Source: a virus
Reading direction: 5' to 3' (one strand)
IMG/VR virus record: IMGVR_UViG_3300043449_002306
Span: 1-39,195 of that record
DNA: 39,195 bases
Within the stretch, counting starts at the first letter, position 1. The number at the start of each line of letters is the position of its first letter. The position numbers and the translations under genes were made by a program. The notes under the pieces are model-generated. The model searched no databases. It saw only the letters and a program-made list of their open reading frames with translations, and had not been told where the DNA came from. Shown here one piece after another: positions 159 to 20,272 of the stretch.

Positions 159-905
159 ATGAAAAAAAATAAAAAAAACAAAAATATCGACAAATCACCT
201 TATGTTCATCAAGACGAAAAGTTAAAAGGCAAGCTCCAATTTAAAAATAAAATCCAATGGACAGAAAAACAAAGAAAATTTTTAGAACTGGCCTCTAATA
301 AAGATGTTAAAGTAGTTTTTGTTAAAGGGCCTGCTGGCTCCAGCAAGTCTATTCTTATAGTCTATGCAGCTCTTCAAATGCTAGACGATAAAAAAATATC
401 AGAAGTAATGTACATCAGGTCTGCTGTTGAAAGCTCCGAGTCTAAAATAGGTTATCTCCCCGGCACCAATGATGAAAAAATGATGTATTACAACCTGCCT
501 TTTATGGAAAAGTTGGGAGAGCTTCTTTATAGCCCCGACATTGAAATGCTTAAAAAAGAAGAAAGAGTAACATGTTTTTCAACAAATTTTGCTCGCGGCA
601 TGAGCTGGAATGCTAAAGCTATTATAATGGATGAGGCTCAAAATTCGTCTCGCAAAGAGATTATTACTATTTTAACTAGAATAGGGCAATTTTCTAGGTG
701 TTTTGTACTGGCCGACCCTCTTCAAACAGACCTTACTAATGGTAAATGCGGCGGATTTGAAGAATTGTTTCAACTTTTCAACAATCAAGAAGGGCGCGAC
801 AATGGTATTTATACCTTTGAGTTTACTGAAGAAGACATTATGCGCTCTGAACTTGTTAAATATATAGTTAAAAGAGTGGGCCAGCTCCCAATTAAGAAAA
901 TTTAA
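159..905 (+). CDS. phoH: PhoH-like P-loop ATPase
   Basis: This 248-residue protein matches the core of the PhoH family. The visible motifs are a Walker A loop GPAGSSKS (57-64), a conserved block around IRSAVESSESKIGYLPG (86-102), FARGMSWNAK followed by Walker B IIMDEAQ (155-161), and the sensor-like segment ADPLQTDL (185-192). The end, with DIMRSELVKYIV, also fits. PhoH proteins are cytoplasmic ATPases thought to act on RNA. They are common in large aquatic phages, but their phage role is unsettled. The first 30 residues are lysine- and asparagine-rich and probably flexible. Its 3' end overlaps the convergent minus-strand gene by 14 nt. Family membership is clear; the function in infection is not. 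Confidence 0.9.
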   Translation: MKKNKKNKNIDKSPYVHQDEKLKGKLQFKNKIQWTEKQRKFLELASNKDVKVVFVKGPAGSSKSILIVYAALQMLDDKKISEVMYIRSAVESSESKIGYLPGTNDEKMMYYNLPFMEKLGELLYSPDIEMLKKEERVTCFSTNFARGMSWNAKAIIMDEAQNSSRKEIITILTRIGQFSRCFVLADPLQTDLTNGKCGGFEELFQLFNNQEGRDNGIYTFEFTEEDIMRSELVKYIVKRVGQLPIKKI

Positions 906-1341
906 TTTTATTTATTAATTCTTCTTTGTTATATATTTTAGGATTACCATTTTTGACTAATAAAATATATTTAATTTTATCTTCATTTACTTTTTTGATA
1001 AAATTAAAAGTATCGCCCCAATTTCTGCAAGCCACAAAATCAAGACTAATTGCATTATAGTCAGGATTTGGTTCTTTATAAGCGTTTTTAATTAATTCAT
1101 TAACAATGTTTTGTGGATCTTCTATATAAATTTGATTCCACAAAATGTAAACATAATCATCATTATAAAAATATCCTTTATATTTTTCAATCTGATCTGA
1201 AAAGGTTTCTAAAGCTTGATTTAAATTATTTTCTCTAATTAAAAAATCACTGTTGGGGTGATATTTAATTAATAATTTTTGGCAGTCAACAAAAAAATCG
1301 ACTTTTTCTTCAATTGATAAAAAATTTAAAGATTTATTCAT
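892..1341 (-). CDS. Hypothetical protein, only minus-strand gene
   Basis: This 149-residue product is not recognised. It fills a gap that has no + strand gene, and an open frame this long is unlikely by chance in sequence this AT-rich. The protein looks soluble and mixed alpha/beta, with no membrane segment or signal peptide. The C-terminal half carries an aromatic, charged stretch (DFVACRNWGDTFNFIKKV) and then a beta-strand-like KIKYILLVKNG. It converges on phoH with a 14-nt tail-to-tail overlap. Its start lies 3 nt from the + strand promoter motif at 1343, so it diverges from the zinc-ribbon/sigma operon. No Shine-Dalgarno sequence is visible. It is probably expressed on a different schedule from the late genes. 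Confidence 0.6.
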   Translation of the reverse strand: MNKSLNFLSIEEKVDFFVDCQKLLIKYHPNSDFLIRENNLNQALETFSDQIEKYKGYFYNDDYVYILWNQIYIEDPQNIVNELIKNAYKEPNPDYNAISLDFVACRNWGDTFNFIKKVNEDKIKYILLVKNGNPKIYNKEELINKIKFS

Positions 1342-1342
1342 A

Positions 1343-1363
1343 AAGTGTAAATTATTTAATATA
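1343..1363 (+). promoter_or_regulatory. Putative late promoter motif, regulatory/terminase operon
   Basis: The site reads AAGTGTAAATTATTTAATAT, with GTGTA at 1345, 51 nt before the start at 1396. It lies in the divergent spacer next to the minus-strand gene. It would drive the zinc-ribbon, sigma, small terminase, nuclease and large terminase genes. Confidence 0.5.
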
Positions 1364-1395: not shown

Positions 1396-1830
1396 ATGAA
1401 TATCAAAAATAAATATTGTCATAATTGTGGAATTAAATTAGTTCCAACAGCAAAATTTTGTACTGATTGCGGAACTTCACAAGCTTCACTTTCTGCAAAG
1501 CCACCGCCGCCAGAAGAATCAGCGCCGAAATCCTTACAAAAAAATTTACAAAGACCTCAAAATACTTTTACACCAGTTTCCAATATTGATGATGATGATG
1601 AAGATAGTTATATAGATCACATTGATCATTTAGAAGTCTCTATTTCTTCTCTTGAAGTTGATTTTGGTAGACCAAGCTCTAAAAAAGAAACAGTTGGTCA
1701 ATTAATGAATGAAGGTTCAGCTTTACCCCAAAACGCAGAAAATTTTACAAGGGCTACTCCTGGACCAGTAGATAACAAAGCATTTTTAGAACAATTTAGA
1801 AACGAAGCTGGCACATTAAGAAATAAATAA
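1396..1830 (+). CDS. Zinc-ribbon protein
   Basis: The N-terminus of this 144-residue protein is a compact four-cysteine zinc ribbon, CHNCG then CTDCG (C8, C11, C22, C25), of the short type found in many regulatory or nucleic-acid-binding proteins. The rest is low-complexity and acidic: a proline-rich stretch (about 36-60), then DDDDED (about 65-70) and a hydrophilic tail. It looks like a small zinc knuckle on a disordered acidic arm. It is the first gene of the unit and ends one base before the sigma-like gene starts, so it could be a transcription accessory protein. That role rests on context only. Confidence 0.6.
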   Translation: MNIKNKYCHNCGIKLVPTAKFCTDCGTSQASLSAKPPPPEESAPKSLQKNLQRPQNTFTPVSNIDDDDEDSYIDHIDHLEVSISSLEVDFGRPSSKKETVGQLMNEGSALPQNAENFTRATPGPVDNKAFLEQFRNEAGTLRNK

Positions 1831-1831
1831 A

Positions 1832-2512
1832 ATGCCAAAAATTAAACGCCCAAAATTTGAAGACTGTTTAGATTTAATAAACATAGAAATAAACAAAAGA
1901 AAATCAAAATGGAATTTATCTTCCATTGCTTGGATGGACTTTGATGATGTTTCTCAAATTATTAGATTTCATATACATCAAAAGTGGAAACAATATAATC
2001 CCGAAAAACCACTACAACCATGGATTAGTATAATAATTACCAATCAATTAAGAAATTTAATAAGAAATCATTACACAAATTATGCTAGGCCATGTTTAAG
2101 GTGTGATGCAGCGATAGATAATGATGGTTGCAAAATTTATAAGGAACAATGTGAATCATGCCCCCTTTATGCACATTGGAAAAAAAATAAACAGCCCGCC
2201 ACTTTTGTAAAGCTCCCAGTTTCTATAGAAAATCATAATTACGAAGTTCATGGTATTGAAGACAATTATTCATATAGAACAGAAGACATTCAAAAACTGC
2301 ACGATATAATGAAAAAAATATTAAAACCAATAGAATATCAAGTCTATAAAGGTTTATATATTGATCATTTAGATGAAGCAGCTGTAGCAAAAAAATTAGG
2401 TTTTATTTCAAACGAAAAAGGAAGATCTCCCGGCTATAGACAAATTAAAAATATAACTAAATCAATAATTATAAAAGCAAAAATTTACATAGAAAAAGAA
2501 GGTCTAGATTAA
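1832..2512 (+). CDS. Phage sigma-70-like factor with inserted cysteine cluster
   Basis: The first part of this 226-residue protein resembles sigma region 2: DFDDVSQIIRFHIHQKW (36-52), then PWISIIITNQLRNLIRNHY (63-81), the typical helix pattern of small sigma factors. The C-terminal part (about 160-222) resembles region 4, with a helix-turn-helix around LDEAAVAKKLGF and basic helices after it. Between them lies a cysteine cluster (C88, C91, C100, C107, C110) that looks like a metal-binding insertion. T4 gp55 and its relatives are similarly minimal late sigma factors. I infer that this protein directs late transcription, and it is the natural candidate to read the GTGTA motif. It is coupled to its neighbours, ending one base before the next start. 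Confidence 0.7.
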   Translation: MPKIKRPKFEDCLDLINIEINKRKSKWNLSSIAWMDFDDVSQIIRFHIHQKWKQYNPEKPLQPWISIIITNQLRNLIRNHYTNYARPCLRCDAAIDNDGCKIYKEQCESCPLYAHWKKNKQPATFVKLPVSIENHNYEVHGIEDNYSYRTEDIQKLHDIMKKILKPIEYQVYKGLYIDHLDEAAVAKKLGFISNEKGRSPGYRQIKNITKSIIIKAKIYIEKEGLD

Positions 2513-2513
2513 T

Positions 2514-3620
2514 ATGGAAACTCCAAAAGAATTAGAGCTAACTTCTGAGCAAGAGAAACAAATGTTGGATCTTTGGAACAAAAATCCAAGCTCTCCTCCT
2601 GGTTTAAAAGAAATTACAAAAGAAATTTTCGGCGGCGATTTTGATGGTAGAAGCGCGCAGGGGAGAGCAGTTAAAAAGTCATTATTAAAATTTAATCTTC
2701 GCGCAAAAGCAACAAGCGACTATACTCCTAAAACAGCGGAAGTTCAATTAACGGAAGAGCAAAAACAATTTATTATTAATAATGTCGCCACAATGAATTC
2801 TTTAGAAATTTCAAAGATTCTTTTTCAAAACCCAACTCTTACCAATTTAAACGCCGAAACTCGCGCAGTTAATGATTTCGTAAAAACTTTAGATACAAAA
2901 GTTGTTTATAATCAAAATCAAAATGATGATATTCCCACGGAAGATTATCAGCCCCCGGCTACTTTAGAAAAAGTATTAAGAAGAGTTAATAAGTATGTAA
3001 ATTGCAATCTTGATAAAGAAAAACTTAATAATAATCAAAGAAAAGGATTAGAAGCCTTAATTAATTATCTTCACACATTTAGGTTTATTAGACAAATGAA
3101 TACTTATGATAGTCAAGACGACAGAACTCTTTGTGAAGATGCCTTTATTCGTTATACTTACGATAAACCAGATTTAAATCAAGAAGAGGTTGACCAATAT
3201 ATTGAACTTTCTAATCAAGTGGTTCAAGGATTTAAAGTTCTTAGAAGAAGTGAAAGAATGCAATTTGCGCTTGAACAAATTACCGGTAATGATCCAGAAA
3301 CAATGAAAGTTTCTATGGGTCTTGTAGAAGCAATTGGAAAAGCTAGCACTGAGTATGATCAATGCATTAAACGTCAACAAAAATTATTAGATGATCTTAA
3401 AGAAAAAAGAAGCACAAGACTTTCAAAACAGATAAAAGAAACTGCTTCTATTTTAAATCTTGTTCAACTTTGGCGAGACGAAGAAGAGCGTATAAAAATG
3501 ATAAAATATGCCGAAATTGAACAACAAGCAGTTGCCCAAGAAGTTGAAAAATTAACAAGTATGGAAGATATAAAAGCCAGAATATTTGGATTAGATAAAA
3601 ATGAAATATTAAATGGTTAA
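2514..3620 (+). CDS. Putative small terminase subunit (DNA-binding, coiled coil)
   Basis: This 368-residue protein is read as a candidate TerS because of its position and architecture. The N-terminal 130 residues contain two helical segments of helix-turn-helix type, around LKEITKEIFGG..GRAVKKSL (32-56) and SLEISKILF..ETRAVNDFVKTL (96-125). The centre is helical, and the last 120 residues (about 250-365) form charged heptad-like helices suited to a coiled coil or oligomer. TerS proteins recognise the packaging site and form rings that load the large subunit. The length is large for TerS. No sequence-level family signature is recognised, so another DNA-binding role is possible. It starts in the context TAATATG right after the sigma gene. 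Confidence 0.5.
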   Translation: METPKELELTSEQEKQMLDLWNKNPSSPPGLKEITKEIFGGDFDGRSAQGRAVKKSLLKFNLRAKATSDYTPKTAEVQLTEEQKQFIINNVATMNSLEISKILFQNPTLTNLNAETRAVNDFVKTLDTKVVYNQNQNDDIPTEDYQPPATLEKVLRRVNKYVNCNLDKEKLNNNQRKGLEALINYLHTFRFIRQMNTYDSQDDRTLCEDAFIRYTYDKPDLNQEEVDQYIELSNQVVQGFKVLRRSERMQFALEQITGNDPETMKVSMGLVEAIGKASTEYDQCIKRQQKLLDDLKEKRSTRLSKQIKETASILNLVQLWRDEEERIKMIKYAEIEQQAVAQEVEKLTSMEDIKARIFGLDKNEILNG

Positions 3621-3621
3621 T

Positions 3622-4542
3622 ATGGAAGTTTTTTGTAAAATTTGTCAATTAAAATTTGATGGTGATTCTTCTTTTCATAGCCATTTAAAATCTCATAAAA
3701 TTAGACAAGCTGAATATTATCAAACTCATTATCCTAGATACGATAAGTTTGATAAAACAATTATAAAATTTAAAAACAAAGAACAATATTTTAATACTGA
3801 ATTTAACTCCAAAATTTCTTTTAAAAGTTGGATTTTATCCGTTTCTTCAATTATTGCAGAATCCTATACAAAAGAAATTCTTTCGAAAAGAAAAGAAAAA
3901 GGCAAAATAAAATTTGCTCCCACCCAAGTTGAATTAAAAACAATGATGATGCCGGGAATTAAATTCATTAACGAAAAAATAAAAAATTATAATAATTTTT
4001 GTAAAGAATTAGGTCTTGAAATTAAATTTTTAAAAGAATCTTTAAATGAAAACGAATTTAAAAATATAACTAATAAATATATTTTTACAGATTCAAGAGA
4101 GCAAAAAGCTTTAGAATTTGATAACCGTACCAAAGTTAAAGGAATGTCTTTTGGTGATTATAGAATGAAAGATTCTTCTATTTATATAGAAAGAAAATCA
4201 ATAAATGACGCTTGGGGCACTTTAACTGGAGGATACGAAAGATTTGAAAGAGAAATTCTTAGAGCAAAAGAAGCCGAAGGTTATTTGGTTATTTTGGTAG
4301 AAGGCCCTTTTAATGAATTAGAAAAATTTCCAACTCAAAGACAGGTTTATGGAAAAATCAAAATTCCTGTAGAATTTTTATATCATAATATTAGAGAACT
4401 TTGTCAAAAATACAATCATATTCAATTTTTATTTGTTAAAAATAGAGAAGAAGCAAGTAGAGTTATACAAAAAATTTTTGCAGCAGACGAGCAAGTTAAA
4501 GATGTTGATCTTCAATATCTTTATGACATAGGAAAATTATAA
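3622..4542 (+). CDS. C2H2 zinc-finger ERCC4-type nuclease
   Basis: The N-terminus carries a classical C2H2 finger, C5-x2-C8-x12-H21-x3-H25. The C-terminal half carries the XPF/ERCC4 nuclease signature: TDSRE (156-160), GD (178-179), then ERKSIND (190-196), the ERKxxxD metal-binding core. Such enzymes cut branched or structured DNA. I chose the ATG at 3622 because TTAATATGGAA repeats exactly the junction used by the gene before; an ATG at 3613 would add three residues and overlap the previous gene by 8 nt. It sits between the putative small and the large terminase, and its stop overlaps the TerL start. It may resolve branched DNA ahead of packaging, as endonuclease VII does in T4. The domain call is firm; the role is inferred. 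Confidence 0.8.
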   Translation: MEVFCKICQLKFDGDSSFHSHLKSHKIRQAEYYQTHYPRYDKFDKTIIKFKNKEQYFNTEFNSKISFKSWILSVSSIIAESYTKEILSKRKEKGKIKFAPTQVELKTMMMPGIKFINEKIKNYNNFCKELGLEIKFLKESLNENEFKNITNKYIFTDSREQKALEFDNRTKVKGMSFGDYRMKDSSIYIERKSINDAWGTLTGGYERFEREILRAKEAEGYLVILVEGPFNELEKFPTQRQVYGKIKIPVEFLYHNIRELCQKYNHIQFLFVKNREEASRVIQKIFAADEQVKDVDLQYLYDIGKL

Positions 4543-6386
4543 TGTGGTATAGTCCTTTAAAATACGAAAAAAACATAATAGATGTAAACAAAGAATTCTT
4601 GAACCTTAAAGGCGAACTTGACGAAAGACAAGCAAGAGTTACTTTGGCAAAATTTCTTTATCGTAATCTTGGCTTTACCACAGAACTTCTGACTGGAATA
4701 AGACTTTATCCAGATCAAATTATTAATATTAAAGGAATGCTTAATAGTAATTATACAATGTGTGTTTGGGGACGTGGTTTAGGTAAAACATTTTCAGCGG
4801 CAATATTTTGCATTTTACAAAGTATATTTTTTCCAAAATCAAAAATTCTAATAGCTGGACCTACATTTAGAACTGCGCGTTTTATTTTTAATTATATTGA
4901 AAAAACATGCGACAGCCCTGGGGCTCAAATGTTATTTCAAGCAATGGGCGTTAAATCAAAAAGAAATGATGAGTTTAGGTGGAATATTAATGGTGGAGAA
5001 ATTGTGGCCATTCCCCTTAATGGAGAAAAGATTCGTGGTTTTCGTGCGAATGTGCTTGTTATTGACGAGTTTCTTTTGATGAGTGAAGATATTGTTGAAA
5101 AAGTTTTAATGCCATTTCTTTTAGCTCCACAAGACATTGATGAAAGACAAAGAATTCGCAGAAAAGAAGATGAATTGATTAGAAGAGGTCTTTTAAAAGA
5201 AGAAGATAGAATGAAATTTCCTAATAAGGCAAAATTTATTGGACTTTCTTCCGCCAGCTATACTTGTGAATTTTTATATAAAAAATATGACGAATTCATA
5301 AAAAAAATATATGATCCAAGTATGCCAGAAACTGGAGAAAAATATTTTATTAGTCAATTAGCTTGGAATGCTATCCCGGAAGATCGTATAGATAAATCAA
5401 TTATTGAGTTAGCAAGCAGTAATGAATCTAATCAAGCAACTTTTAAGCGTGAATACGGTGCTCAATTTATTGATGGTTCTGACAGCTATTTTTCGATGAA
5501 AAAAATGTTAGAATGCACAGTTCCAGATGGTGAACCTTCTTCTATACAAATAAAAGGAGAAAAAGATAAAAAATATATTTTGTCAATTGACCCCAACTTT
5601 TCTAATTCTCCTACCGCCGACCATTTTGCAATGTGTTTGATAGAAATAGACGAAGATCCAAATAAAATTTCTGGAACCGTTGTTCATAATTATGCCAAGG
5701 CAGGAAAAGACTTAAAAGATCATATAAAATATTTTTATTTTTTAATAAAGAATTTTAATATAGAAATGATTATTATTGATTATGCTGGTTATCAATTTAT
5801 CGAATCAGCGAATGAAAGTGAGTGGTTTAAAAAAGATAAAATAGAAATCAAAATTTTTGAATTTTATGCAGAAAAAGATGGAGCAGAATTAGAAGATCAA
5901 TTAAAGAATGCTAGAAGGTCTTATAATAAAGAAATAAATAGGATTGCTTTTACTCAATATTTTACGACTGATTTTATTAGGAAAGGGAATGAATGGTTGC
6001 AGGGATGCATTGATTATAAAAAAATATGGTTTGGTTCTAATATAAAAGCCGATGCTTCAACTTTTGATAAAGCAATATCAACAGAAATAGGAGAAGATTT
6101 AAATTTAGTTGATGAAGATTCTTTGGGTGATTTAATTGATGAACAGGAAGTGTTAATGAGGCAGACGAAATATCAATGCGCTTCTATAGAAGTTAAATCT
6201 ACTGCGAAAGGAACTCAAAGCTTTGATCTTCCGCAAATAATGAAAAGAGACCATTCTTCCAGCAGGATGAGGAGAGACAGTTATACTGCTTTAATGTTAG
6301 GATGTTGGGGAATAAAATGCTATAAAGATATTACTAAAGTTACAGAAAATGATTCTCAATCGACATTTGAGCCTATTTTCCTTTAA
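4542..6386 (+). CDS. terL: Large terminase subunit (TerL)
   Basis: This 614-residue packaging motor has both TerL domains. The ATPase has Walker A WGRGLGKT (76-83) and Walker B VLVIDEF (171-177), with the coupling segment near IGLSSASY (233-240). The RNase H-fold nuclease begins at YILSIDPNF (D350), continues with MIIIDYAG (D413), and ends with a conserved RRDSYTALMLG segment near residue 590. Its length matches the T4 gp17 class. It translocates DNA into the prohead at the portal and cuts the concatemer. The start overlaps the preceding stop in TAATG, suggesting translational coupling. The next gene is a fibre, with the portal after it. Confidence 0.93.
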   Translation: MWYSPLKYEKNIIDVNKEFLNLKGELDERQARVTLAKFLYRNLGFTTELLTGIRLYPDQIINIKGMLNSNYTMCVWGRGLGKTFSAAIFCILQSIFFPKSKILIAGPTFRTARFIFNYIEKTCDSPGAQMLFQAMGVKSKRNDEFRWNINGGEIVAIPLNGEKIRGFRANVLVIDEFLLMSEDIVEKVLMPFLLAPQDIDERQRIRRKEDELIRRGLLKEEDRMKFPNKAKFIGLSSASYTCEFLYKKYDEFIKKIYDPSMPETGEKYFISQLAWNAIPEDRIDKSIIELASSNESNQATFKREYGAQFIDGSDSYFSMKKMLECTVPDGEPSSIQIKGEKDKKYILSIDPNFSNSPTADHFAMCLIEIDEDPNKISGTVVHNYAKAGKDLKDHIKYFYFLIKNFNIEMIIIDYAGYQFIESANESEWFKKDKIEIKIFEFYAEKDGAELEDQLKNARRSYNKEINRIAFTQYFTTDFIRKGNEWLQGCIDYKKIWFGSNIKADASTFDKAISTEIGEDLNLVDEDSLGDLIDEQEVLMRQTKYQCASIEVKSTAKGTQSFDLPQIMKRDHSSSRMRRDSYTALMLGCWGIKCYKDITKVTENDSQSTFEPIFL

Positions 6387-20257: not shown

Positions 20258-20272
20258 TAGTGTAAATATAAA
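20258..20272 (+). promoter_or_regulatory. Putative late promoter motif, main fibre unit
   Basis: TAGTGTAAATATAAA has GTGTA at 20260, 15 nt before the ATG at 20275. TTTAC at 20247-20251 partly mirrors GTGTAAA. It would drive the large fibre and the three paralogues after it. Confidence 0.55.

Follow-up and report, generated by a model that had tools for sequence, protein, structure and literature searches.

In tailed phages, the branches that arise in recombining concatemers must be cleared during packaging; T4 uses endonuclease VII for this, and in many phages HNH nucleases form part of the packaging apparatus. A different group of enzymes, XPF, Mus81 and Hef, reads branched DNA via tandem helix-hairpin-helix, or (HhH)2, domains. 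At the T4 portal, endonuclease VII (gp49) lets packaging resume where Y or X junctions have halted it (PMC9958956; also PMC3485210), although its gene lies away from the terminase. Nucleases of the HK97 gp74 type also act as phage packaging components (PMC9410871, citing Kala et al. 2014); gp74 is an HNH protein that stimulates cos cleavage. Viral ERCC4 nucleases are already known: in two haloviruses examined they are short, stand-alone proteins (about 145–160 aa) encoded outside the packaging module, the HRTV-27 gene lying at 44.7 kb and TerL at 2.9–4.6 kb, about 40 kb apart, and the magrovirus ERCC4 protein is listed with replication proteins (PMC10160649). Our literature search found no report of an ERCC4 protein next to a terminase.

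The window, meaning the whole 39,195-base virus record analysed here, in which no end repeats were noted, encodes such a protein directly upstream of the large terminase gene (TerL). The features of the locus are as follows.

1345..1350, + strand: GTGTA(A) motif heading the operon, a putative module-specific (late) promoter element
1396..1830, + strand: zinc-ribbon protein, the first operon gene in this clade (PF13240, E=6.8e-7)
1832..2512, + strand: sigma-70-like protein (PF04542, E=2.5e-5, above cut-off)
2514..3620, + strand: HTH-like/coiled-coil protein, with two HTH-like helical segments and a long coiled coil (predicted)
3613..4542, + strand: C2H2-ERCC4 nuclease, whole gene, 309 aa (ORF, profile, alignment, model and structure matches)
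3634..3696, + strand: C2H2 zinc finger, aa 8–28, CX2CX12HX3H (C8, C11, H24, H28)
3700..4077, + strand: helical middle region, aa 30–155 (helices in the AlphaFold model)
4078..4503, + strand: ERCC4/XPF-type nuclease domain, aa 156–297 (Foldseek, structural alignment, PDB profile search)
4090..4209, + strand: active-site stretch D160-x-RE ... G181-D-Y ... E193-RK-xxx-D199 (alignment of 30 relatives)
4507..4539, + strand: conserved C-terminal tail DLQxxYD, aa 299–309 (alignment)
4542..6386, + strand: TerL, ATPase and nuclease (PF03237, E=3.6e-8; phrog_2, E=4e-27)

By profile, fold and signature the protein is an ERCC4-domain nuclease, with cleavage itself predicted. It matches the PHROG 3490 ‘ERCC4-type nuclease’ profile over aa 156–290 (E=1.6e-11), and Pfam PF02732, although it misses the window’s own copy, recognises 29 of 30 family members (6e-13 at best). 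The intact ERCC4 signature (GD, ERK) reported in the initial annotation is borne out by the aligned relatives, in all 30 of which D160, R162, E163, D182, E193, R194, K195 and D199 are invariant, with G181 nearly so; the catalytic signature GDXnERKX3D is present in the window protein and across the family, and the active-site motif in 173 of 174 ORFs; the remaining one is truncated at a contig boundary. Shuffling the protein 100,000 times produced neither the ERCC4 nor the C2H2 motif. AlphaFold, run with the 30-sequence alignment as input, gave a model with a pLDDT of 93.8, whose residues ~154–294 resemble A. pernix XPF (2bgw; Z 13.5) and the P. furiosus Hef nuclease domain (Z 13.0), the superpositions having an rmsd of 2.3–2.4 over about 125 residues. 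P. furiosus Hef (1j22) was the top match both in Foldseek (E=1e-6) and in a profile search against the PDB (E=1.8e-6). No HNH nuclease domain was matched in the window protein by Pfam or PHROG, its nuclease being ERCC4, and the Pfam matches listed for it do not include Endonuclease_7 (PF02945).

Fold and catalytic motif are thus the same as in archaeal Hef and XPF (P. furiosus Hef 1j22–1j25, A. pernix XPF 2bgw), whereas the remainder of the protein differs: it has no helicase and, since the model extends only about 12 residues past the nuclease domain and closes with a short helix, no C-terminal (HhH)2 domain, and it carries instead a C2H2 finger and a helical N-terminus, encoded in a phage packaging operon. 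The union of C2H2 finger and ERCC4 domain in one protein, also claimed earlier, is upheld by the PHROG 3490 match, by the Pfam matches of relatives and by motif conservation, with an exact CX2CX12HX3H in 165 of 169 near-full-length relatives. C2H2 models match most of the 30 family members searched with Pfam, PF12874 scoring E=0.0021 on the window copy, below its cut-off, and the finger is absent from shorter natural variants in two relatives (L088 and L095). On the evidence of the model, the helical middle region is possibly a DNA- or protein-binding module; a match to the homing-endonuclease-associated HNH_repeat (PF18780; 1.7e-4) in one of the 30 members, not localised within the protein, provides a weak lead for DNA binding. 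In the C-terminal tail, D299, L300, Q301, Y304 and D305 are invariant, and the DLQxxYD element may serve in docking or packing. The halovirus and magrovirus ERCC4 proteins (PHROG 3490) share a homologous domain, with 25–44% identity over the domain in haloviruses. What appears new, judged by the papers searched, is the fusion to a C2H2 finger and the fixed place before TerL, in a large uncultured lineage.

The gene is embedded tightly between its neighbours. The start at position 3622 given in the initial annotation was ruled out as an internal in-frame ATG; 3613 is preferred because homologues begin there and in most of them the gene's brief overlap with its upstream neighbour is conserved. 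In the window, the start codon lies inside the last codons of 2514–3620. At the other end, the last A of the stop codon TAA (4540–4542) is the first base of the TerL ATG at 4542, so that the overlap with the TerL start noted in the initial annotation is real. That annotation had also placed the gene between small and large terminase genes, of which TerL is confirmed by its PF03237 and phrog_2 matches, while the identity of the small subunit is plausible. The 2514–3620 protein, a candidate small terminase, is all helical in its AlphaFold model (pLDDT 79.7); it is without family or sequence match in Pfam, PHROG and phage records, and a structure search with the model returned unspecific coiled-coil matches.

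The TerL Walker K82 and D175/E176 are present in 77 of 77 readable relatives, and the nuclease residues D350, D413 and D579 in 76 of 76. With its ATPase and nuclease residues intact, TerL does not require a stand-in, and a role for the ERCC4 protein as substitute for an inactive TerL nuclease is ruled out. In some relatives, TerL reaches ~1045 aa (L095:8468–11605, L165:7830–10955) through an insertion within Walker A that resembles a LAGLIDADG-type intein.

In IMG/VR, 96 related stretches were recovered when the protein alone served as query and at least 520 when the alignment did. About 170 loci were examined, their ERCC4 proteins forming 73 clusters at 90% identity. Counting loci with TerL on the contig, TerL lies directly downstream of the nuclease gene in 93 of 97 (first sets) and 71 of 75 (second set), the sets overlapping in some contigs; where not directly adjacent it lies within about 1 kb, save for two loci cut by contig ends. 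As an independent check, 17 loci were fetched by TerL alone, and all 17 carried the nuclease upstream. The linkage to terL, which the initial annotation had named as a check, thus holds in essentially every relative, and no empty sites, that is, operons without the nuclease gene, were seen in the loci surveyed. The nuclease gene is under purifying selection (dN/dS about 0.07), and pairwise ERCC4 and TerL distances correlate with r=0.83, a value reached by none of 2000 permutations. Together, these results favour a vertically inherited, functional gene over a sporadic homing nuclease.

The full-length protein was found in no cultured phage of the phage collection, where only halovirus ERCC4 domains match. 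The phage records likewise yielded no cultured relatives of the putative portal, of the helical protein encoded upstream or of the conserved structural protein L099:4576–5763, and no matches to a hand-made consensus of the C2H2-helical region; the proteins upstream of TerL in Microcystis phage MaeS and Bacillus phage Stills were unsupported as relatives. As to the host, one relative lies on a contig binned with a Flavobacteriales MAG; Bacteroidota-type promoters were not enriched, and TTGACA-type words occur in another relative (G004).

Gene order is kept as PhoH, (zinc ribbon), sigma-like, HTH/coiled-coil protein, ERCC4 and TerL. The zinc-ribbon gene was detected in 30 loci, the sigma-like gene in 75 of 99 (many of the remaining loci being cut short) and the HTH/coiled-coil gene in 96 of 99. 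The sigma-70-like protein, which TIGR02937 matches below cut-off (E=2.7e-7), is a candidate late sigma factor. A second sigma-70 family gene is present in a 124-kb relative, outside the packaging operon (L103:12186–12812, - strand; TIGR02937, E=5e-15). Between PhoH and the operon, on the opposite strand, lies a 149-aa gene of no known family (window 892–1341, - strand); its equivalent in the 124-kb relative is related to genes of G004 and G011 (34–44%).

AGTGTA or GTGTA precedes many structural transcription units on the + strand of the window, at 123, 1345, 6390, 11781 and 16426, with further sites at 20260, 27079, 27388, 29759 and 38323. Among the 15 + strand copies of GTGTA, 12 lie no more than 75 nt upstream of a start codon, where the share of the area would predict 0.95. 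In the 124-kb relative, whose + strand gaps belong mostly to the structural module and whose - strand carries most replication genes, GTGTA is found in 19 of 30 + strand intergenic gaps and 2 of 16 - strand gaps, and GTGTAA-type words are enriched in the + strand gaps of three other large relatives. Several relatives, like the window (1345), have a copy at the head of the operon. The presence there of a motif typical of structural genes suggests that the nuclease operon is expressed late, together with them. The motif may be a late promoter recognised by a phage sigma factor, and the sigma-like gene at 1832..2512 would be the obvious candidate to read it.

Whether these phages encode another resolvase bears directly on the role of the protein. 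Profiles for endonuclease VII, T7 endonuclease I, RuvC, RusA, Hjc and RecU (PF02945, PF05367, PF02075, PF05866, PF01870 and PF03838), which matched the positive controls (control genomes, phages T4 and T7), produced no match above cut-off when run on ten large related viral records, all of them fragments. Weak matches fell below cut-off (G017, PF02945, E=0.01; G004, PF01870, E=0.018), and the one RuvC match was on contig C10 of a bacterial MAG record (G014), outside the viral records. The 124-kb relative, whose nuclease is 94% identical to that of the window, encodes a PolIII-like polymerase, DnaB, a primase, a PD-(D/E)XK exonuclease and a UvsX-like recombinase, so that branched DNA is to be expected. 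Beside UvsX lies a 138-aa protein (L102:16287–16700, - strand), conserved in three relatives (G001, G004 and G011), that by eye resembles a small PD-(D/E)XK nuclease (EVHGKQH), has weak matches to PHROG families annotated as homing and HNH endonuclease, and could be an alternative resolvase. A Whirly-domain protein (L101:17384–17869, - strand; PF08536, E=1.2e-6) is perhaps a phage single-strand DNA-binding protein. The proposal that the ERCC4 protein replaces endonuclease VII is supported in so far as no canonical resolvase rose above cut-off in the ten records, and is weakened by their fragmentary nature and by the nuclease-like gene beside UvsX.

We propose, with a probability we would put at about even, that the protein is a packaging-linked, structure-selective debranching endonuclease of the ERCC4 (XPF/Hef) superfamily. 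Its gene would be expressed late, as part of one operon with TerL and the candidate small terminase. Anchored to the DNA or the packaging complex by its C2H2 finger and helical N-terminal region, the protein would use its ERCC4 domain to nick Y, flap or X branches of the concatemer that recombination produces, and so spare TerL from stalling. The job would be that of T4 endonuclease VII at the portal (PMC9958956), performed by an unrelated fold. Computed support comes from the nuclease fold and active site, strict operon linkage, purifying selection, covariation with TerL and the shared promoter motif. Debranching before packaging, as first suggested, is favoured by the terL linkage, the structural promoter motif and the lack of canonical resolvase matches, whereas cleavage and branch preference, like lateness and recruitment to the motor, are what we infer. 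Against it stand the absence of an (HhH)2 domain, the loss of the C2H2 finger in some relatives, the conserved PD-(D/E)XK-like protein beside UvsX, the fragmentary state of the related records, and the fact that operon position is guilt by association. A stronger form, put forward tentatively and in our view somewhat improbable, would make the nuclease an indispensable third part of the packaging machinery that docks physically on TerL, portal or TerS and provides built-in branch removal.

The alternative that survives best, though we consider it unlikely, is that the protein acts in DNA end formation, the C2H2 finger and helical region binding a pac or cos site at which the enzyme nicks, helping TerL to start or end packaging. 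The terminase-adjacent niche is that of packaging HNH nucleases (PMC9410871), although gp74 has an HNH fold and stimulates cos cleavage, while here an ERCC4 fold lies directly upstream of TerL. The finger and the possible HNH_repeat-like region are candidate DNA readers, and the nuclease is always co-inherited with TerL, but the finger is lost in a subclade. ERCC4 nucleases, moreover, generally select structure rather than sequence. This option, raised in the initial annotation, is retained as the less favoured one because TerL keeps its three nuclease aspartates, an argument that is not decisive, the HK97 TerL also being nuclease-competent.

That the protein is a general recombination or repair nuclease merely located in a late operon appears less probable again. 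Such a function would fit the known viral ERCC4 proteins, which sit outside the packaging module (HRTV-27; magroviruses, PMC10160649), some among replication genes, but the present gene is tightly fixed beside TerL across a very diverse set, and its strand and motif class are those of structural rather than replication genes. That the gene encodes a selfish, homing-type nuclease, free-standing beside terL, or a domesticated form of one, is very improbable: the PF18780 match in one member and the intein-like TerL insertions hint at it, but mobile endonucleases are sporadic in distribution, whereas this gene accompanied every TerL-fetched relative with no empty sites, tracks TerL in its distances and is under strong constraint.

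The debranching proposal offers a clear test target in the nuclease gene, and late control can likewise be tested, the operon combining a sigma-like gene with the promoter motif of the structural genes. If the proposal is true, this large and so far uncultured phage lineage would have an independent solution to branch clearing at packaging, and the XPF/Hef superfamily would be extended from DNA repair to virus assembly.
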